A stretch of 42,563 bases of DNA, from contig JACRKH010000064.1 of NCBI GenBank assembly GCA_016235495.1, positions 1 to 42,563 of the forward strand, read 5' to 3'. How positions within the stretch are numbered: the stretch's first letter is position 1; the number at the start of each line of letters is the position of its first letter. This stretch comes from Candidatus Woesearchaeota archaeon (GTDB lineage: Archaea > Nanobdellota > Nanobdellia > SCGC-AAA011-G17 > GW2011-AR17). The notes beneath the pieces were generated by a model, which searched no databases, was not told the DNA's origin, and saw only the letters and a list, made by a program, of their open reading frames with translations. This document shows, in pieces, positions 1-35,559 of this stretch. The translations under genes were made by a program, and so were the position numbers.

Positions 1-3000
1 AGTCATCCTGTCAAGATCTATCTTTCCTGTCTCTGGATCCATCCCAACTTCAGTCATACAATATCTAAGCAAAGCAACAGCACGAATAGCATCCTCTTCT
101 TCAACCTCAGACTTTAATTTTATCCGAGCAGAAGCCTCAGCTAATCGAACAACAGCCTCTAACTGTCTCGCAGAAATAGGAATAGGTTTAATTCCTCCAT
201 CACCATGTGTGCTCGTAGAACGCAGCTCAACATAATAAGCTTTGATAACATCAATTGCCTTCTGTGTCAGCTTGGGAAACACTTTCTGCTTTGCATACGC
301 AAGATATTTCCTGATAAACTTTGCTTCAATCTCTGGCGCAGGTTCTTTTGCAGCATGTGAATCCAAGACTCGAGTAGCAATCTTTTCATCCAAATCTTTA
401 TTAGGCAAATCACGCATGACAAAAATCAAATCAAACCTATTAATCAAAGCAGGAGGCATATCAATCTGATTAGGAATAGGAGTTATAGGATCAAACCTCC
501 CCAGCTTGGGGTTTGCAGCCGCAAGGATAGAAGTTTGTGTTCGCAACGTAGCTTGTATATTCGCCTTTGCAACAGAAATACTATTATGAAGTACAAGTCC
601 CTCACTTAAAAAATTCTGTGTGGGCTCAACAGTAACATCATATACCCATTGTGCATCTGTATTTTTAATAGTTTTTATACTTTTAATTTTAACAAAACGT
701 AAATCAGACTGAATAAGAGTATTTTTCTTTTCTAAAAAAGGGAGTTTTCTCGGAGCTGGGACAAAAAGGCCTTCTTTCAAATCACAAGCAGCAATTTCAG
801 TATAAACATTATTTTGAAAAACAAAAAAAGGATGCTCTGGAGTAACAACAACCTTTCTGCCATGACTAAAAGTAACCTCTATAAAAAAATCTGGAGCTGC
901 ATGCCTGCTTACTCTATTTACTGGTATAGAAAAAATTTTTTTAAAGTCAGTTGTTAAAACATGTATATCAGAAACAGGAAGTATTTCACAATTCTTACCC
1001 AATTGTTTTTTTTCAGGATATTTTTCAAAAAGCTGATCAACAAATGAGCCAATCTTCTCAACACTCCCATCAGCAAACATAATCTTAAATTCTGGATGAT
1101 AACTTTGTTGCTCCATGGCCTCATGCAGTGCAGAAGTATCCTCTTTAGAGATTTTATCCATCTCATCAAGCACAAGAATTCCTTTATCAGCAAGCACCAT
1201 CGCTCCTGCCTCTAGTGCCCAGCCTCGGAGAAACTCATCTTTGACAACACTACAAGTATTATGAACCAAAATCCCATCCACGACAAAATTATGAGAATCC
1301 TCAACTGTTAAATCATAAACATAATCATAAGGAGAATCAAATTCACATACTGAAACAATTTTTTCCCAGAAGAGATCACTTTCGGCTAAATAAGAGAGCC
1401 CCTCATCCTTTATATGTGCACTATCTAACACTTTTTTAAGATGACAGGGTGAAAAACCATGAGAATGCCAATGTGATTTCCTTAAACTTATTCTTTTAGA
1501 TTGTAATAACTGCTTAACTCTATATTGAACACATGGAATAATATCAATATTTGTATCTGCCTTTACATGCTCCTTAAGCCTGCTCTCTATTTTATTTTTC
1601 TTGAGAGTATGTGCAATAGGGATATGTCTATAGAATTTTTCAATCTCAGACTGTGCGGAACTCGATAATTCCCATTTGAGAAGCCTGCTTTTTATTCTTC
1701 CTTCTGCAGGTTGACGAACACGAAGCTTCCAATGCATGCCATAACGTAAAAAGACAAGTTGAAGAGTTCTAAGCATTTCTTCTGAACCTGAGCAAAATGC
1801 AAGCTCCACTCTATTATTATCTTTTCTTTTTCCAACAGAGCCATCAGAATCAAAATATCCAGCTATAAATGAAGCAAGAAGAGTATTTGAAAAATGAAGA
1901 AGAATAGGAGTAAAAGTAATAATGTTAGATTTTGGAGAAAACTGCATACCAAGTTTCAACAAAATTTCAGACAAAATCCTAGAATTTGCAATAGTGCACT
2001 GAGGTCTTTTACTCGTAACAGCCTTCTGCAAAGAGAAATGAAGAGAAAATTCTTTTTGAAGGATAGACTGATATTTCAACTGCAAAGTCTCAGAAGAATT
2101 AGAGAAACCAAACTGATAACTCTTTCGTAAATTGCCATCACCAACAAGAAGACCAGTAAGATAAAGTAAATCTAAAGAAACGAAAGTGGGAAGACTGTGT
2201 TTTTTTCCATTATATAAACTGACAGTTTTAACTTTATCTCTATATTCTAATCCAACATCTTGTGCAAGTTTCTTAAGTGTTTGAAGTTTTATATTCCCCC
2301 GAGCGTCCTTTCTAACCCAATGATGATAGAGATTATTCTCGTGTACTTTCAGAGCTCTTGCTGCAATCCTTATACTTCCATATTTTTTCTGCAGTTTTAC
2401 AACAATTTCTTGAATAAAACCCTTTATATCATGAACAACAGGATTAGAATCAATAAGATCAACAATATACACTTTATCCTCATTTCCACCAATAAGTTGC
2501 CTTGGTGTTGCAATATAGTCTCCTTCTTTCAGTTCTATGCTTTTTTTCCAAAGAGGATATCCATTTTGAATAGAATAAAGTTGAGTATTTGCAGTAAGTT
2601 CAATCTTTTTCCCTGACTGTAATCGAACTTCAATCATTTTTGAAGGAGATTCAAGTTTCCACAAGGCTGCTGGATATTGAGAATGTACTTTAAAATCATA
2701 TCCCATGCTTTGAACTTTAATATCTGTGACTTTCTCTTTTCTCCAAACCCCATGGCAATATTGTGAAAGCCCCTCAACTTTAGGATTTACAAAGGAAGAA
2801 ATTTTTTCTATTCCACCTGGATTTAATAACACTTTACTTTGTGGGGAAACACAAAGTCCAGCACCGCTAGCACTTCGCCCAGCAACATACCGCGATTTAG
2901 GTGCAGTATTATTTACAAAGGTAAGCATCTGGCTTTTACCAGAGTTATGACAGAGTATACCATTAGCAATGAACGACTTGCTCACAGGCACTTCAAAATC

Positions 3001-5067
3001 ATAAACATCCTGAACACCTGCAAAATCTAAAGATACTACTTTCTCCCAAGATTGATAACGCTTTCGTAATTGTCTCTTATCTTTTCTTTCTTCAACTACC
3101 GCAGATACTCTCAAAAGAGCATTCTTCTTTTTCTGAGAAACAAAGCCAATATCTGTAATAAACTGATCCATATCCAAAGCCCTTCGTATACAAAGATTAT
3201 CTTCTATAATTCGAGATTGAATACCAAAAAATAAAAGAAGTTGCTGTACATCTTTCAACAACCCAGGGCTTCGGGATTTTAATTGAATCGAAGTCCTCCC
3301 TCTTCCATTTCCAAAAGCACACCCATCTGCTTCAAAAAGCCAGCGTAAAAAGCTAGCAATAACTGCTTTAGGACTCTGAAATATTTTCTGTGGAACACGC
3401 TTTGTAGACAAGAAAGAAAGTGAATGAGCTATTTGTTTGCTATTGACTTCTAAAAGATGAAGATCTTGCACAGAATGTATGACCCTTTCATACCCATTGG
3501 TATCAATAATAAGATGAGGCGAAGCTTTCCTAAGAATAGAAGCTGCTTCAACTCCAAAGACATTTTTCCAAAGAGACTGTAGTTGAGCAAGAAGCTCTTT
3601 TTCTTCTTCATTGATATAACAAGTTACTCTGTAGCCTTTAGGATGCAAATTTCCATCACCCAAAATATATCCACAAAGTGCTGCAAGTTCAGAATCAAAA
3701 AATTCCGGAAGATGAACCTCTTTTAATGGTCCATATGTCCTTTTTAGAGCACTAAATTCTGTCGATACCAAATCAGTAACAAGATGTGGAATATGAGGCA
3801 TAACACGAATTTTCTCTCCAAGAGTAAGACAATCTGCCCTCCTCCACCCTTCTTCAGTATAAACAGGCTGATTGAGTGTACAAATGATTTCTTTTCCTGT
3901 TTCAGTAACAAGCTTTAGAACAGGTTGCTTTTCATACTTCTGAAAAACAGTTGCATAATCATAAGCCTTATCCATACTATTCTTTCTTATTTTTACAACA
4001 GGAATATGAATAGACTGTCCATGTTCTTTTCCAAGAGATTGAATCTGCTTCAATCCTTTATTATGCAAAGCAACCAGAGAATCACCAGCAATACATCCAG
4101 GATCGCCAACCAAAAGCACGTGCAAATCTCCTCGCACAATGGTGCCATCCTTCTTTGTCTTTCGAATACCGCCAAACAGCTGCAAAAGAATTGCTTCTTT
4201 GATTTTTTCATGCCCATAAATAGAAGGAGCAATGCTTCGTATTAATCGCTCATTCACTTGCTTATCCCTCGCCAATTTCTTAATTTCCTTTTCATCCTCA
4301 GGACTGATGGAAATCTCAGAATAATCCTCCTCTACAGGCTCAATATAATTTGCCTGCACTGCAAGATCAAATCGTGTTGAAGTAGCACCAGTTTTTGTTT
4401 GTATAGGAATTTCATACAAAAGCCCATTCGTAAGAATTCTTGTCCCTGGAGTTGTTCGCTTCTCCATTCTAGGTTCAACAAGATCTTCCCGCAAAAATAT
4501 CTGCATCCTCTTCGGCTGTGCACCACCCTCAAGATTTTCAGGAGACTCCTCAATCACAAGCCTTTGTACATCAACCAACTCTTTTGAGAGTAATCGAAAC
4601 TTTCCTTTTCTCCCGCAGCTGCATCGCGAAGGTTCACGAAACTGCTGATCAATCTGAGGCATAGTAATAGTATTCCCGCAGGAAGGACACTCAAACTTTG
4701 CACTTACAGCTTGCGGTCGTACCTCAGAGCTCTGCCTGATGATGCCTTCCATGGCAATAAATTTATTCAAATGCTTGCTTCGCAGATTACGAATATAAAT
4801 CTCCTGAGACTTAGGTAAATTTCGAAAACGAATACGAAAACCTTTTTTCACTTCAAACTGCTCTAAAGCCATCTCCGCAGCCTTAGTCGTTTCCTCAGGT
4901 TCCTCTAACAACTGATCTGCAAGCTTAGGATCATACTTAGTAATATCAAAGAAATCAACGAGAAGATAATTCAGGCCCTTATTCATATTCTCATGCAGTT
5001 GTTTCTGATAGCTCTGCTCAATAAATTCCTGAAACTTCTCTATTTGCTCTGCTGCATCTATCGCCAT
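1..5067 (-). CDS. mcm: Replicative helicase MCM, three inteins, 3' end beyond window
   Basis: ATP-driven 3'-5' helicase of the archaeal replisome. One frame runs from ATG at 5067 to the left edge (1689 codons, no stop reached). Exteins are residues 1-324, 709-738, 1271-1321 and 1496-1689, which join into about 599 residues of MCM. Visible are a zinc-binding set near residues 125-150 (CPSC then CSC), a Walker A loop GDPG/SGKS split by intein 1, the GRSASGAGL segment split by intein 2, Walker B VLDEMDK, the HEAMEQQ/SISVAKA segment split by intein 3, sensor 1 (ILAAANPK) and the arginine-finger region LINRFD. The C-terminal winged helix lies off the window. The start fits a leaderless mRNA: the TATA box is centred near 5094, 27 bp upstream. 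The gene is divergent from the PIN gene at 5175, with a shared upstream element at 5116-5126. Confidence 0.97.
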   Translation of the reverse strand, partial: MAIDAAEQIEKFQEFIEQSYQKQLHENMNKGLNYLLVDFFDITKYDPKLADQLLEEPEETTKAAEMALEQFEVKKGFRIRFRNLPKSQEIYIRNLRSKHLNKFIAMEGIIRQSSEVRPQAVSAKFECPSCGNTITMPQIDQQFREPSRCSCGRKGKFRLLSKELVDVQRLVIEESPENLEGGAQPKRMQIFLREDLVEPRMEKRTTPGTRILTNGLLYEIPIQTKTGATSTRFDLAVQANYIEPVEEDYSEISISPEDEKEIKKLARDKQVNERLIRSIAPSIYGHEKIKEAILLQLFGGIRKTKKDGTIVRGDLHVLLVGDPGCIAGDSLVALHNKGLKQIQSLGKEHGQSIHIPVVKIRKNSMDKAYDYATVFQKYEKQPVLKLVTETGKEIICTLNQPVYTEEGWRRADCLTLGEKIRVMPHIPHLVTDLVSTEFSALKRTYGPLKEVHLPEFFDSELAALCGYILGDGNLHPKGYRVTCYINEEEKELLAQLQSLWKNVFGVEAASILRKASPHLIIDTNGYERVIHSVQDLHLLEVNSKQIAHSLSFLSTKRVPQKIFQSPKAVIASFLRWLFEADGCAFGNGRGRTSIQLKSRSPGLLKDVQQLLLFFGIQSRIIEDNLCIRRALDMDQFITDIGFVSQKKKNALLRVSAVVEERKDKRQLRKRYQSWEKVVSLDFAGVQDVYDFEVPVSKSFIANGILCHNSGKSQMLTFVNNTAPKSRYVAGRSASGAGLCVSPQSKVLLNPGGIEKISSFVNPKVEGLSQYCHGVWRKEKVTDIKVQSMGYDFKVHSQYPAALWKLESPSKMIEVRLQSGKKIELTANTQLYSIQNGYPLWKKSIELKEGDYIATPRQLIGGNEDKVYIVDLIDSNPVVHDIKGFIQEIVVKLQKKYGSIRIAARALKVHENNLYHHWVRKDARGNIKLQTLKKLAQDVGLEYRDKVKTVSLYNGKKHSLPTFVSLDLLYLTGLLVGDGNLRKSYQFGFSNSSETLQLKYQSILQKEFSLHFSLQKAVTSKRPQCTIANSRILSEILLKLGMQFSPKSNIITFTPILLHFSNTLLASFIAGYFDSDGSVGKRKDNNRVELAFCSGSEEMLRTLQLVFLRYGMHWKLRVRQPAEGRIKSRLLKWELSSSAQSEIEKFYRHIPIAHTLKKNKIESRLKEHVKADTNIDIIPCVQYRVKQLLQSKRISLRKSHWHSHGFSPCHLKKVLDSAHIKDEGLSYLAESDLFWEKIVSVCEFDSPYDYVYDLTVEDSHNFVVDGILVHNTCSVVKDEFLRGWALEAGAMVLADKGILVLDEMDKISKEDTSALHEAMEQQSYHPEFKIMFADGSVEKIGSFVDQLFEKYPEKKQLGKNCEILPVSDIHVLTTDFKKIFSIPVNRVSRHAAPDFFIEVTFSHGRKVVVTPEHPFFVFQNNVYTEIAACDLKEGLFVPAPRKLPFLEKKNTLIQSDLRFVKIKSIKTIKNTDAQWVYDVTVEPTQNFLSEGLVLHNSISVAKANIQATLRTQTSILAAANPKLGRFDPITPIPNQIDMPPALINRFDLIFVMRDLPNKDLDEKIATRVLDSHAAKEPAPEIEAKFIRKYLAYAKQKVFPKLTQKAIDVIKAYYVELRSTSTHGDGGIKPIPISARQLEAVVRLAEASARIKLKSEVEEEDAIRAVALLRYCMTEVGMDPETGKIDLDRMT
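583..1104 (-). other. MCM intein 3, mini-intein (174 residues)
   Basis: Residues 1322-1495 of the precursor. It starts with Ser (SYHPEFKIMFADGS) after HEAMEQQ and ends LVLHN before Ser (SISVAKA). Block B is intact (VVTPEHPFF). No LAGLIDADG motif is visible, and the length fits a splicing domain only, so this is an endonuclease-free mini-intein. Confidence 0.93.
1258..2853 (-). other. MCM intein 2 (532 residues) with helix-turn-helix insert
   Basis: Residues 739-1270 of the precursor, starting Cys (CVSPQSKVLL) after GAGL and ending LVHN before Thr-Cys of the C-extein. Two LAGLIDADG motifs are visible (LTGLLVGDGNL and FIAGYFDSDGS). Before them lies an extra segment (GSIRIAARALKVHENNLYHHW) that looks like a helix-turn-helix, probably DNA-binding. 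Block B reads LTANTQLY, with Thr where His is expected. The intein is unusually long, and the Thr +1 nucleophile is a known option. Confidence 0.93.
2944..4095 (-). other. MCM intein 1 (384 residues), inserted in the Walker A loop
   Basis: In-frame intervening protein, residues 325-708 of the precursor. It starts with Cys (CIAGDS) after GDPG and ends in the block G pair His-Asn, with Ser as the +1 residue (SGKS). It carries two LAGLIDADG helices (CGYILGDG, LRWLFEADG), so a homing endonuclease domain is present. The splicing block B segment reads CTLNQPVY: the usual TxxH histidine is Gln. Removal restores GDPGSGKS, so the host helicase is inactive unless splicing occurs. From memory, an MCM (CDC21) intein of Thermococcus kodakarensis also lacks this His yet splices. 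Confidence 0.95.
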
Positions 5068-5089: not shown

Positions 5090-5153
5090 AATATAAAGAT
5101 TTAGGTGCTTTTTTTGAAAGATTTTCGGTTTTTTCCTCTAAAGTCTTTTTAAG
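5090..5153. promoter_or_regulatory. Divergent promoter mcm / PIN gene with GAAAGATTTTC element
   Basis: The dyad GAAAGATTTTC is at 5116-5126. On the minus strand a TATA box (TTTATATT, 5090-5097) lies about 27 bp away and 26 bp before the mcm ATG. On the plus strand a TATA-like CTTTTTAA (5145-5152) lies about 28 bp away and 26 bp before the PIN ATG. The motif is therefore almost equidistant from both boxes. The same arrangement recurs at other promoters in the window. Confidence 0.6.
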
Positions 5154-5804: not shown

Positions 5805-5868
5805 ATTTATAACTCTTTCCAAATACTTTTTGAAAGATTTTCAGAAAAAGAAGAGAAAGGTTTATTAA
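5805..5868. promoter_or_regulatory. Divergent promoter with central GAAAGATTTTC element
   Basis: The dyad is at 5832-5842. The plus TATA box TTTATTAA (5861-5868) is about 27 bp from its centre and drives vapB, whose ATG lies 27 bp further. The minus TATA box (5805-5812) is about 28 bp from its centre and drives the small gene ending at 5588. This is the same geometry as at the mcm/PIN promoter. Confidence 0.6.
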
Positions 5869-13287: not shown

Positions 13288-13384
13288 CTACTCTTTTTCA
13301 CCTGTATCAGCATTTACCCCTTGCCAAGTCCAAAAACAATGAGGCTTCTAAACGAAGCGAGAGAACAATAAGCTCTATTTCTCA

Positions 13385-13458
13385 GAAAATCCTTCGGAAA
13401 AAACACCAAAACACTTATAAATTACTAGAAACCCCAGTAGAATACCTAGCTAGCTAGG
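13385..13458 (+). promoter_or_regulatory. TRAM gene promoter: dyad variant, TATA box, 14-bp palindrome
   Basis: A variant of the recurring dyad (GAAAATCCTTC, 13385-13395) is centred 27 bp before the TATA box CTTATAAA (13414-13421). The predicted transcript start near 13444 falls at a perfect 14-bp palindrome, CCTAGCTAGCTAGG (13445-13458), which in RNA could fold as a 5-bp hairpin at the 5' end. The ribosome site AAGGAG follows. The palindrome may be a protein operator or an mRNA 5' structure. Further upstream, 13343-13357 holds an inverted repeat GCTTC/GAAGC of unknown role. Confidence 0.5.
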
Positions 13459-13841: not shown

Positions 13842-16697
13842 ATGTTTGATTCAGCAATCTGGACAGAAAAGTATAGGCCGCAAAAATTCTCAGAAATCAA
13901 AGGGCAGATAAAGATTGTAGAAAGAATCAAGGCTTTTGTTGAGCAAAAGAATATGCCCCACATCATGCTTGCAGGGCCTGCAGGAGTAGGCAAGTCAAGT
14001 ATCGCACTAGTCATCGCAAAAGAGCTCTTTGGCCCAGAATGGAAAAACAGTTTTCTCGAATTAAACGCGTCGGACGAGCGTGGCATTGATGTGGTAAGAA
14101 ACACAATTAAAGAATTCGCAAAAACAAAAGCAATGGGCAATGTTCCATTTAAAATAATTTTCTTAGATGAATGTGACTCATTAACGAAGGAAGCACAGCA
14201 GGCATTAAGAAGAACCATGGAAAATTTCGTTCTCACCACCAGATTTATACTAAGCTGTGTTACTCCAGACACAAAGATTCTTCTTAGTGAAGATAGAGAA
14301 ACAAATATAAAAACAATATTAGAATTAATGGAAAAAGGAACAGGAAATAGTATCACTAATCTTACAAAAGAAAAATCTTCCCTAAAAATAGATAAAATAA
14401 TTGCTGGAGTTGAATTACCTGCATCTTCAATAGGAAAAAAAGTCTTAGCTATAAAAACAAACACCGGAAGAAATATCAAAGTCACAGATGATCACAAACT
14501 CTTAACCGTAGAAGGATGGAAAGAAGCGGGAAAAATAACAAAAGAAGATAAACTTCTTATTTTCCCTGCAACAGAAGGAACCCCTTTAGAAGACAAACAG
14601 GAAAACATCATCAATCTAAAAGAGTTCATTAATTTTTTAGATAAAAGCGAGGAGGATTTAAATCTTAAGAATCTAGTAATTGCGAAAGAATTTAGAAAAT
14701 TAAAATCAATAGATAAGAAAAAAATATTTACCAGAATAAAAGAGCTTAAAGAAATGAATCTTAAGAATAGGGGTCTAACAAAAAGAGAATATGAAGTCTA
14801 TCAAATAATAAAAGAAAACAAAGCTATTTCAAGAAAAGAGCTACAAGATAAACTCAATATTACCCGAATGGGAACAAATTATCTAATAACCCAGCTTAAG
14901 AAAAAAGATATTATTCAAAGAAAAGGAAACCTCAGAAACCAAACTCTCACTTTAACTAACAATAATATTCTAATGCAACTAAGAACTGATATGGATATTA
15001 GAAAACTTATAGAAGAAGAATTTAAACTCTCCATATCCTACATAGCTGTACATAAACAAGAGAAGTTTACAACACATGGCAGAATCGATAGAATTATAGG
15101 AGAATTGAAAAGAAAAGATATCTTAGACATAACATATAACAATATTGAAATAATTGCAGCACTTGCAAGAATTTGTGGGTTTATAACTGGAGACGGGCAC
15201 ATTACCAAAAAAAATGGAAGAGTTTATTTTTCTGGTAATAAGCCAACCCTAGAAGAAGTGAAAAAGGATCTCCAAAAGATAGGCTATAATAATTACTCTA
15301 AAACAGAATCAAAAGAAATTAATAATTATATAGGCAGAAGAGAAATAAAAGGAATTTCTACATATTTCTACCTTGATTCAATAGCCTTTTCCTTATTATT
15401 ACAATACCTTGGTCTTGCAAAAGGAGATAAAGTAATAAGTCCATATAGAGTCCCAGAATTTATTGTAAATGGTACTATCCTAGCCAAAAGAGAATATCTA
15501 CGAGCCTTATTTGGAGCTGACGGAGATAGCCCAAGATGGAAAAACAAAAACTCTCAGCCATTAGCACTAAGACAAAACAAAGCAATTCCTTTCAAAAATG
15601 ACATGGAAGAATTTCTTAAAGAAATTTCTAATATATTAAAAGATTTTAAAGTTGAATCCTATGTAAATATAAGAGATAAAAAAGAATGGAGAAAGAAAGA
15701 TAATTTTCCAGTACTAACATTTGAATTACACATCAAAGCAAATAATTCTAATCTCCATAACTTTTTCACAAGAATAGGTTATTGTTATGAAAAAGAAAAA
15801 ATAAATCTAGCGAGAATAAGTGGAGAATACTTAAAATATAAACAAAATGCGATAGAAAAATGGGGGGAAAAAGGAAAACAAGCCTTAATAATACTTGAGA
15901 CTGAATCAAAAAAGACCAATATTGCAAAAACATTAAACATAAGCACAGATTTTATTAACCATCAAATAAAAGGAAAAATAGTAGGCCTACCCAGAAAGCA
16001 AATTAAAAATTTTAACAGGTGGAAAGAAGAATACATGTATAATGAAATTCTTATTTTAAATGAAATAGAAGAAATTGAAATAATCCAAGAAGATATAGTT
16101 TTAGATATAACTTGCAAAGGTAATCCTAACTTCATTTCAAATGGATTTATTTCCCATAATTGCAACTATTCCAGCAAAATCATTGATCCTATCCAAAGTA
16201 GATGCACAGTATTCAGGTTCAAACCATTAACTGAAGAAGAAATAGAAGAATATGTCAAGAAAATAATTACACAAGAAAACCTCCAAATGGACAACACCAC
16301 AGTAAAGGCTTTGGTGAACATTAGCGGAGGAGATGTAAGAAAAATTACAAATGTACTGCAAAGTTGTGCATCCATTGACAAAAGAATAAATGAAAATCTT
16401 ATTTACTCATTAGTATCCGCAGCAGAACCCCAGGAAATAAAAGAAATTCTTCTCCTCGCAACAGCAAGGCAATTCATCCGAGCAAGATCATTACTCTTAG
16501 ATACGATGCTCAAGCACGGGCTCTCAGGACTAGACATTTTAAAACAAATTCAAAAAGAAACCATTTTACTAAAAGAAGTTCCTGAAGAAAAGAGAATAGA
16601 TTTCATAGACAAGTGTGGAGAAATAGAATTCCGCATGGTAGAGGGAGCAGATGAATTTGTACAACTAGAAGCCCTGCTTGCGTACTATGGAAAATGA
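13842..16697 (+). CDS. rfcS: Replication factor C small subunit with intein
   Basis: 951 codons: 316 residues of RfcS interrupted by a 635-residue intein (residues 139-773). RfcS forms the AAA+ clamp loader that opens PCNA. The exteins show Walker A GPAGVGKS (45-52), ELNASDERG, Walker B FLDECDSL (107-114), sensor FILS/CNYSSKI and the Arg-finger motif QSRC. The start follows a TATA box (13807-13815) by about 27-30 bp. The stop codon overlaps the rfcL ATG (ATGA), so the two subunits are co-translated. Confidence 0.97.
14256..16160 (+). other. RfcS intein (635 residues) with winged-helix-like inserts
   Basis: Begins Cys ([13 protein letters not shown]) after RFILS and ends FISHN before Cys (CNYSS). 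Block B is intact (KVTDDHKLL). Two LAGLIDADG helices are visible ([10 protein letters not shown] and [10 protein letters not shown]). Between block B and the endonuclease lies a long extra region with a winged-helix look ([20 protein letters not shown], then [13 protein letters not shown]). A second helix-turn-helix-like stretch ([20 protein letters not shown]) follows the endonuclease. This is far larger than a typical 350-550 residue intein. The insertion site in the LS/CNY sensor segment is a known RFC intein position. Confidence 0.94.
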
Positions 16698-22356: not shown

Positions 22357-22971
22357 ATGTATCAGCAAAAAGATTATTATTTTAACAAAGCAAAAAAAGA
22401 AGGTCTCCGAGCACGATCCTCATACAAACTCATTGAGATCCAAAAAAAATACAAGCTGATGAAAACAAATGATAATGTTCTTGACATTGCCTGTGCCCCA
22501 GGCTCTTGGTTGCAAGTAATAAAAAAGTTCACACATGGAAGAATTGTAGGGGTGGATTTAGAAAGCATAAAACCTATTGATGGAATAGAATTTATCCAAG
22601 GAGATATCCGAGATAAGAAAATACAAAGGCAGATAGGAAACAATTATCAAGTAGTCCTCTCAGATATCGCACCAAAAACAACAGGAATTAGAGACAAGGA
22701 TCAATATCTTTCTTTAGAACTCTCAAGAGTTTCTTTTCTCGTTGCAAAAGAGGTGCTCCAGAAAGGAGGTAATTTTCTCGTAAAAACATTCCAGTCGCAA
22801 GAAACAGAAGAATTAGTAAAAGAAATAAAAAAAGAATTTGATTTTGTAAAAAGATACAGTCCTGCATCAAGCAGAGAAGGTTCAAAAGAGATTTATATTC
22901 TTGCAACAGGATATAAAGGAAAAAAAATTAATTCAAAAAAGGAAGAGCTTTCTGTATCAAAGGAAGAATAG
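22357..22971 (+). CDS. rlmE: 23S rRNA 2'-O-methyltransferase (FtsJ/RlmE family)
   Basis: 204 residues. SAM-binding motif VLDIACAPGSWLQV, with the K-D-K-E catalytic set visible as SSYKL, LSDIAPK, FLVKTFQ and a Glu in SREGSKEIY. It transfers a methyl group to a ribose 2'-OH, in archaea most likely on 23S rRNA. The C-terminal 25 residues are a Lys/Glu tail. It is translated in an operon with the HerA-like gene. Its last 44 nt overlap the convergent small gene on the other strand. Confidence 0.94.
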   Translation: MYQQKDYYFNKAKKEGLRARSSYKLIEIQKKYKLMKTNDNVLDIACAPGSWLQVIKKFTHGRIVGVDLESIKPIDGIEFIQGDIRDKKIQRQIGNNYQVVLSDIAPKTTGIRDKDQYLSLELSRVSFLVAKEVLQKGGNFLVKTFQSQETEELVKEIKKEFDFVKRYSPASSREGSKEIYILATGYKGKKINSKKEELSVSKEE

Positions 22972-23167
22972 CTTCTGCTTCTTCTTTAAACAACCTTCCC
23001 ATTTTACTGAAAGAATATTCACCAGTAGCCTGGCTCCTATCTTCTCGAGAAATCTGAAGCTTTGCCTTTCCACCATTATAGGAAAAAACACTTACTGTTA
23101 AGCGTGTCGTCTCAAAATCCACTGATTCGTGAAATAATTCTTTATCCAAACTTTTGTCAAATGCCAT
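22928..23167 (-). CDS. Small conserved-looking protein, unknown function
   Basis: 79 residues, mixed beta and alpha. It starts MAFDKSLDKELFHESVDFET, has a strand-rich middle (TRLTVSVFSYNGGKAKLQIS) and a C-terminal helix ending IQKALPFLN. No family was named. It is supported by its own TATA box (GTATTTAA on the minus strand, 23191-23198) exactly 27 bp before the ATG and by one copy of the dyad element at 23215-23225. It overlaps the 3' end of rlmE. Confidence 0.7.
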   Translation of the reverse strand: MAFDKSLDKELFHESVDFETTRLTVSVFSYNGGKAKLQISREDRSQATGEYSFSKMGRLFKEEAEAILPLIQKALPFLN

Positions 23168-23190
23168 AACAATGAAAAATAAACAACTCC

Positions 23191-23272
23191 TTAAATACTT
23201 TTGCTAAGGAGCCTGAAAGATTTTCAGAAATCCTGAAAGATTTTCCATTTTTTCTCCTAAAGCTTTTTTAAC
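23191..23272. promoter_or_regulatory. Divergent promoter with two GAAAGATTTTC copies 20 bp apart
   Basis: Two identical 14-bp repeats (CCTGAAAGATTTTC) hold the dyads at 23215-23225 and 23235-23245. The first is 25-26 bp from the minus TATA box (23191-23198) of the small gene. The second is about 27 bp from the plus TATA-like box (CTTTTTTAA, 23263-23271) of the tRNA-Leu gene. Each promoter thus has its own copy. Confidence 0.6.
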
Positions 23273-23295: not shown

Positions 23296-23415
23296 GCCCG
23301 TGTCGCATAATTAGGTAGTGCGGAGGTCTCAAAAACCCTTAGCCCAGAGGAACTAAGGGTCTGAGGAAACCTCTTTCCTTCACCGGATCTCTGGGTTCAA
23401 ATCCCAGCACGGGCG
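23296..23415 (+). tRNA. tRNA-Leu (CAA) with a 34-nt intron
   Basis: Acceptor stem GCCCGTG/CACGGGC, 3-bp D stem GCA/TGC, anticodon stem GAGGT/ACCTC, loop CT-CAA-A/A, long variable arm (TCC/GGA stem) and T arm CTGGG-TTCAAAT-CCCAG. An intron at the canonical 37/38 position (23334-23367) forms a bulge-helix-bulge: central helix CTCA/TGAG with 3-nt bulges AAA and GAA, plus a terminal hairpin CCCTTAG/CTAAGGG. Base 73 is G, not the A usual for leucine tRNAs. CCA is not encoded. A TATA-like box lies 28 bp upstream. Confidence 0.9.
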
Positions 23416-23458
23416 ACATAAAATCATTGGAGAATATAAAGCTTACGAAAAAAATAAT

Positions 23459-23512
23459 GGGTGGCTGATGAGACCACCTAAATCACTGGCTAATAACCAG
23501 AGACACACACCC
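23459..23512 (+). ncRNA. Small tRNA-like RNA A (possible degenerate tRNA copy)
   Basis: A TATA box (AATATAAA, 23433-23440) predicts transcription from about 23459-23462. The RNA can close GGGTG with CACCC and contains a stem-loop CTGG-CTAATAA-CCAG like an anticodon arm, followed by AGACACACACCCGT. That stretch closely matches the next unit (B). No T arm is visible. It may be a decayed tRNA gene or a short structured RNA. The evidence is promoter, fold and similarity to B, all judged by eye. Confidence 0.4.
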
Positions 23513-23560
23513 GTATCAAAATAAAACCTAGTCCTCTATAAAAAAGTTTCGCTCAGTAAA

Positions 23561-34067: not shown

Positions 34068-34146
34068 AGTATATCTTTTATGTATATACATAGAGGTATA
34101 TAAACTTTATGGATAAAGCCCCTAAAAAAGCAAACTAAGGATTTCC

Positions 34147-34183
34147 GCAAATCTTTCGGTTTTTCTCAAGAAATCTTTTTATT
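34147..34183 (+). promoter_or_regulatory. Promoter of 34206 gene, dyad element in inverse orientation
   Basis: GCAAATCTTTC (34147-34157) is the reverse complement of the dyad with one mismatch. Its centre is 27 bp from the TATA-like TTTTTATT (34176-34183), which is 26 bp before the start. The stretch CGGTTTTT then CTTTTTA also matches the PIN-gene promoter at 5127-5152. Confidence 0.5.
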
Positions 34184-35483: not shown

Positions 35484-35522
35484 AAAAAAAAGAATAAACT
35501 CCCAATATATAAACATTACCCT

Positions 35523-35559
35523 GAAAATCCTTCAACAAAAACACAAGAAAATTAATAAA
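35523..35559 (+). promoter_or_regulatory. Promoter of the RadB-like gene with dyad variant
   Basis: GAAAATCCTTC (35523-35533), identical to the copy before the TRAM gene, is centred 27 bp from the TATA box TTAATAAA (35552-35559), itself 22-26 bp before the start codon. Confidence 0.5.

Follow-up and report, generated by a model that had tools for sequence, protein, structure and literature searches.

The window, that is the whole stretch of 42,563 nucleotides analysed here, belongs to an archaeal genome, since it encodes TBP, MCM, a FEN1-type nuclease and RfcL. Both MCM (positions 1-5067, minus strand) and the replication factor C large subunit (13842-16697, plus strand) contain inteins. Between a leaderless gene of 79 amino acids, read from the minus strand, and a tRNA-like gene, read from the plus strand, lie two exact copies of a 14-bp sequence, CCTGAAAGATTTTC, at 23212-23225 and 23232-23245. 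They start 20 bp apart, as the preliminary description of this DNA had noted, and alignment of genomic copies makes this sequence the core of a 15-bp palindrome, CYGAAAGATTTTCRG, henceforth the element. The features that matter are the following:

5114-5128: single element, centre 5121, between the divergent promoters of MCM (minus strand) and of a PIN-domain gene (plus strand)
5830-5844: one element copy, centred at 5837, separating a small minus-strand open reading frame from a plus-strand two-gene operon with a PIN toxin
13383-13397: weaker element, centre 13390, with a plus-side TATA box at 19 bp
22928-23167, minus strand: leaderless open reading frame of 79 amino acids, present genus-wide and in some sister genera, for which no Pfam match was found
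23189-23202, minus strand: BRE/TATA of the 79-amino-acid gene, whose BRE starts at 23202, 18 bp from the copy 1 centre
23213-23227: element copy 1, CTGAAAGATTTTCAG, centre 23220, the distal copy for the tRNA-like gene
23233-23247: copy 2 of the element, CTGAAAGATTTTCCA, with the plus-strand BRE 19 bp from its centre at 23240
23259-23272, plus strand: BRE/TATA of the tRNA-like gene, AAAGCTTTTTTAAC, BRE start 23259
23296-23415, plus strand: tRNA-like gene with a Ser-type body, G73 and anticodon CAA at 23330-23332
34145-34159: weaker element, centre 34152, with a plus-side TATA box at 19 bp and a possible minus-side one 43 bp off
35521-35535: weaker element, centre 35528, with the plus-side TATA box of a RadA/RadB-like gene at 19 bp and a minus-side one just 10 bp off

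Every promoter considered here is predicted from sequence, and the genomes compared are incomplete. The distances were measured with a BRE/TATA matrix, AAAgcTTTATAAA, trained on 119 promoters of the same genome that lack the element; its match starts 35 bp before the ATG. Around the tandem, the description of two divergent TATA boxes, each suitably spaced from one copy, holds, with the small correction that the boxes lie 74 bp apart from centre to centre, not about 73. Likewise as had been reported, the single copies with centres at 5121 and 5837 (14-bp starts at 5113 and 5829) sit between boxes 55 bp apart with a TATA match exactly 19 bp away on either side.

This geometry extends well beyond the window. 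The genome (G000, 867 kb in 67 contigs) was sampled as 325 kb of stretches, complemented by pattern searches. In the palindrome, positions -5 to +5 are nearly invariant, with a core TGAAA-N3-TTTCA, and the 12-mer TGAAAGATTTTC occurs 14 times in the 867 kb against once for its reversed control. Among the 156 sides of 78 strong elements, 44 have a TATA match that starts exactly 19 bp from the element centre, as against 11 at 20 bp and 4 at 18 bp, and a second peak appears at 39 bp. Because the initial set of sites was seeded by the exact 12-mer, the main support comes from an unbiased scan in the reverse direction: when 177 leaderless promoters of the 325-kb sample were scanned over all distances, 12 had an element at 19 bp, compared with 0.7 for each other distance (Poisson probability about 1e-11 to 2e-11). 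The same element-to-BRE geometry is found in the genomes of relatives. Together, the scan and the relatives strongly support the distance-dependent function that had been proposed, and the spacing is stricter than could be told from the window: the element centre keeps 19 bp to the BRE, the second peak being at 39.

Some 35 to 40 promoters among the stretches examined carry an element. In the promoter scan, the distribution of element scores has two modes, positives making up only about 6-7% of the promoters, which sets aside a general component of the core promoter. A general element of tRNA promoters was discarded too: apart from the tRNA-like family, the canonical tRNA genes of this genome are without an in-register element.

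Copies also keep a fixed register with one another. At loci that were not chosen for tandems, the spacing from copy to copy is 20 bp in 22 cases and 30 bp in seven, with at most two at any other value. The 20-bp tandem pattern recurs in 31 of the 103 genomes of the order, mostly in this family, with few matches to the control; G010 has triple copies. Triple arrays in exact 20-bp register are also seen in a genome of another family, G030 (loci L150 and L151).

What decides the number of copies is another matter. The preliminary description took it to be set by the distance between TATA boxes, one copy serving each divergent promoter, and had proposed that homologous promoters be aligned. A rule of this kind, under which every promoter depends on a correctly spaced copy of its own and wide divergent pairs carry two, agrees with the single copies at 5121 and 5837 and with the tandems that are in register on both sides, namely 23220/23240 in the window, its orthologue in G005 and L067 in G006. 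It agrees further with single copies that have a TATA box at 18-20 bp on both sides at L014, L049, L054, L056, L073 and L083. Yet the promoters of the orthologues of the 79-amino-acid gene lose the register. From 18 bp in the window, it goes to 18-19 bp on both sides in G005, where the tandem is shared, then to 24 bp for the minus-strand TATA box in G002 and G003, where two copies lie 30 bp apart; in G001 and G004 a single copy, 8 bp from the TATA box of this gene, serves the other neighbour. The G006 orthologue has a conserved core promoter with neither element nor tRNA-like gene, and no in-register element was found at the orthologues of G007, G012 and G014. Single copies also occur between boxes 46-68 bp apart, of which only one box is in register, and at 34152 possibly 79 bp apart. 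Most multi-copy clusters have just one in-register promoter: the TATA box is in register on one side only in about 20 of 33, and on both sides in three. Finally, 10 of the 13 paralogous tRNA-like genes of G000, G005 and G006 have the tandem, and those located elsewhere in G005 and G006 have it while a divergent in-register promoter is absent. The proposed dependence of copy number on box-to-box distance thus fails at homologous promoters, and a rule of one copy per promoter is improbable. Since orthologue registers vary and tandems recur at the tRNA-like paralogues, the tandem travels with the tRNA-like gene. The pair at 23205-23245 seems to belong to that gene, of which it would be the upstream element, instead of being split between two promoters, and the good spacing of its upstream copy to the TATA box of the 79-amino-acid gene, seen in G000 and G005 only, may be incidental.

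Which protein might read such a site? Archaeal Lrp dimers recognize imperfect inverted repeats of 13-17 bp with AT-rich centres, neighbouring sites being separated by two or three turns of the helix, and the activators Ptr2, LysM and Ss-LrpB occupy a tightly constrained place directly upstream of the BRE and contact TBP (review, PMC2995911). In symmetry, register and position the element agrees with this: CYGAAAGATTTTCRG is a 15-bp imperfect palindrome with an AT-rich centre, copies follow each other by 20 bp or 30 bp, and the centre keeps its 19 bp from the BRE start. A fitting Lrp protein is encoded in the same genome (G000:C59:7299-7769), its nearest solved structures being those of FL11 (PH1519; 2cyy, 2e1c; E about 1e-15), an Lrp/FFRP protein of Pyrococcus. 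What we take to be the consensus of the 13-bp palindromic FL11 site, TGAAAWWWTTTCA, matches the core of the element. FL11 is mainly described as a lysine-responsive repressor with metabolic targets, unlike the activator predicted here. Relatives of the candidate are present in 16 of the 17 other genomes of the family; the element-rich G001, 82% complete, gave a distant paralogue (E 6.5e-10) and no clear orthologue.

On these grounds the element is probably the recognition site of a dimeric activator, for which the FL11-like Lrp/AsnC protein encoded by this archaeon is the likeliest candidate; we infer its identity as an Lrp protein, activation and the cooperative binding of copies alike. The identity stays putative because genomes that show no enrichment of the element (G008, G009, G013, G015-G017) encode the orthologue too. 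A dimer centred 19 bp upstream of the BRE would contact the TBP/TFB complex and aid its loading on the promoter, and this contact would account both for the rigid spacing and for the use of one palindrome by two divergent promoters. Extra copies, offset by one step of 20 bp or 30 bp and facing the same side of the helix, would take a second dimer cooperatively.

The core promoter may bear a trace of the way in which such an activator works. An A is found at TATA position 6 in 10 of 19 element-linked boxes as against 161 of 180 others (P = 2e-4). The BRE of element promoters is not weaker (2.97 vs 2.99, P = 0.87), nor is their overall TATA strength lower. With position 6 degenerate and the BRE normal, the evidence leans towards a predicted recruitment of TBP, of the Ptr2 type, rather than of TFB. 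The TFB-recruiting type is known from TFB-RF1 of Pyrococcus furiosus, which binds a palindrome, TCTG-N5-CAGA, just upstream of the BRE (PMC5937170). The element resembles that site in symmetry and place, but TFB-RF1 acts on weak-BRE promoters, whereas here the BRE is normal and it is TATA position 6 that deviates; in view of the normal BRE, a weak-BRE mechanism was discarded. Ptr2 of Methanocaldococcus jannaschii offers a similar picture: its dimer site directly precedes the BRE at a tightly constrained place, an additional site follows at regular spacing, and it recruits TBP, as is proposed here (PMC2995911). The likeness has limits: the regulon is larger in the present case, it includes toxin-antitoxin and tRNA-like targets, and activation is here a prediction. 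The sequence of the Ptr2 site differs from that of the element.

The same core-promoter data bear on whether the element is instead the operator of a repressor. Toxin-antitoxin operons, which make up many of its targets, are usually repressed, and Lrp proteins can both repress and activate. Against repression, the element lies outside the core promoter, overlapping neither BRE, TATA box nor start site, at one fixed distance and on the side where archaeal activators bind, and TATA position 6 is degenerate; we find an operator for repression unlikely.

A somewhat more credible competitor, still doubtful, is a site for another dimeric regulator, of the TrmB, MarR or ArsR type, or for a DNA-damage regulator similar to Orc1-2. 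The half-site contains ANTTTC, as do the UV promoters of Sulfolobus, where this hexamer is likewise found immediately upstream of the core promoter and belongs to an Orc1-2 regulon of many stress genes (PMC5817253). The present regulon has MCM, RadA/RadB-like, SNase, RadC and XPD-like genes, RadC and XPD being recognized by eye only. Set against this, the 20-bp and 30-bp register is typical of Lrp. The element is palindromic and, given a BRE start 35 bp before the ATG and a further 19 bp to the element centre, is centred about 54 bp before the start codon, while the Sulfolobus motif is non-palindromic and located at -39 to -44; element and hexamer differ on both counts, and a 20-bp tandem register is not among the properties reported for the hexamer in the passages on it (PMC5817253).

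A coordinated change of sites speaks for a single factor, whatever its family. Many promoters of G002 and G003 carry GGAAATCTTCC in place of the usual site, with the spacing unchanged (16 vs 4 and 30 vs 4 against the control). When the orthologues of the genus and of sister genera are aligned, the recognition helix of the Lrp protein reads STIYDKMK in just these two genomes, the others having E for D and L or I for M, a covariation of helix and site seen in one clade only. That all sites changed together in two congeners implies one putative trans factor for the whole regulon. It also weakens the idea that element and TATA box form a promoter cassette, spread by descent along with mobile toxin-antitoxin genes and sharing no regulator. 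The enrichment in such genes, and the joint presence or absence of the element and the tRNA-like gene, would be expected of a cassette; unrelated targets (MCM, SNase, OB-fold, tRNA-like) nevertheless have only the palindrome and its spacing in common, and we regard this origin as very improbable. Regulons of uncultured archaea with small genomes are almost unknown. In this one, the DNA reveals the site, its exact geometry, its targets and a natural change of specificity in two congeners, so that a case of regulator-operator co-evolution becomes directly testable. As a separate observation, the element consensus of G002 and G003 is CGGAAATCTTCCG, at 19-bp spacing genome-wide, for example at L316 and L317.

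As for the targets, in an unbiased sample with calls by Pfam and inspection, 5 of 12 element-linked leaderless genes are of the toxin-antitoxin type, compared with 6 to 11 among 134 controls (P = 5e-4 to 4e-3). The wider list comprises PIN/VapB, MazF-type, AbrB and HicB-like pairs, a DNA methyltransferase, SNase, a RadA/RadB-like gene and MCM. Together with the odd tRNA-like genes, the toxin-antitoxin targets suggest a coordinated programme of stress response or defence.

The tRNA-like genes are multi-copy: besides that of the window there is one at G000:C43:6884-6999, with at least seven more in G006 and four in G005. They have an intron, a long variable arm, a Leu anticodon (CAA or UAA) and, in nearly all, G73; in the window, a bulge-helix-bulge intron is predicted, with likewise predicted limits, at about 23334-23367. 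The 3' half is Ser-like, with 34-35 of 42 bases matching tRNA-Ser(CGA) and 26-29 matching tRNA-Leu. Among the canonical tRNAs of this organism, Ser has G73 and Leu A73. It is conceivable, albeit highly speculative, that one Lrp-type activator turns on a stress or defence regulon in which toxin-antitoxin operons are coupled with a multi-copy family of tRNAs that accept serine and carry a Leu anticodon (CAA/UAA); induction would then put serine at UUG/UUA codons, as programmed mistranslation, or provide PIN toxins that cleave tRNA with decoys.

Each tRNA-like gene is followed by a conserved block, ATAAAAC...AATATAAA...TTACGAAA (about 23417-23450 in the window), and often, after it, by an open reading frame with a Shine-Dalgarno sequence; the block may be a second promoter or part of a joint transcript. 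Further on, at about 23460-23515, a stretch containing TGATGA...CTGG, for which no Rfam match was found, could be a small RNA.
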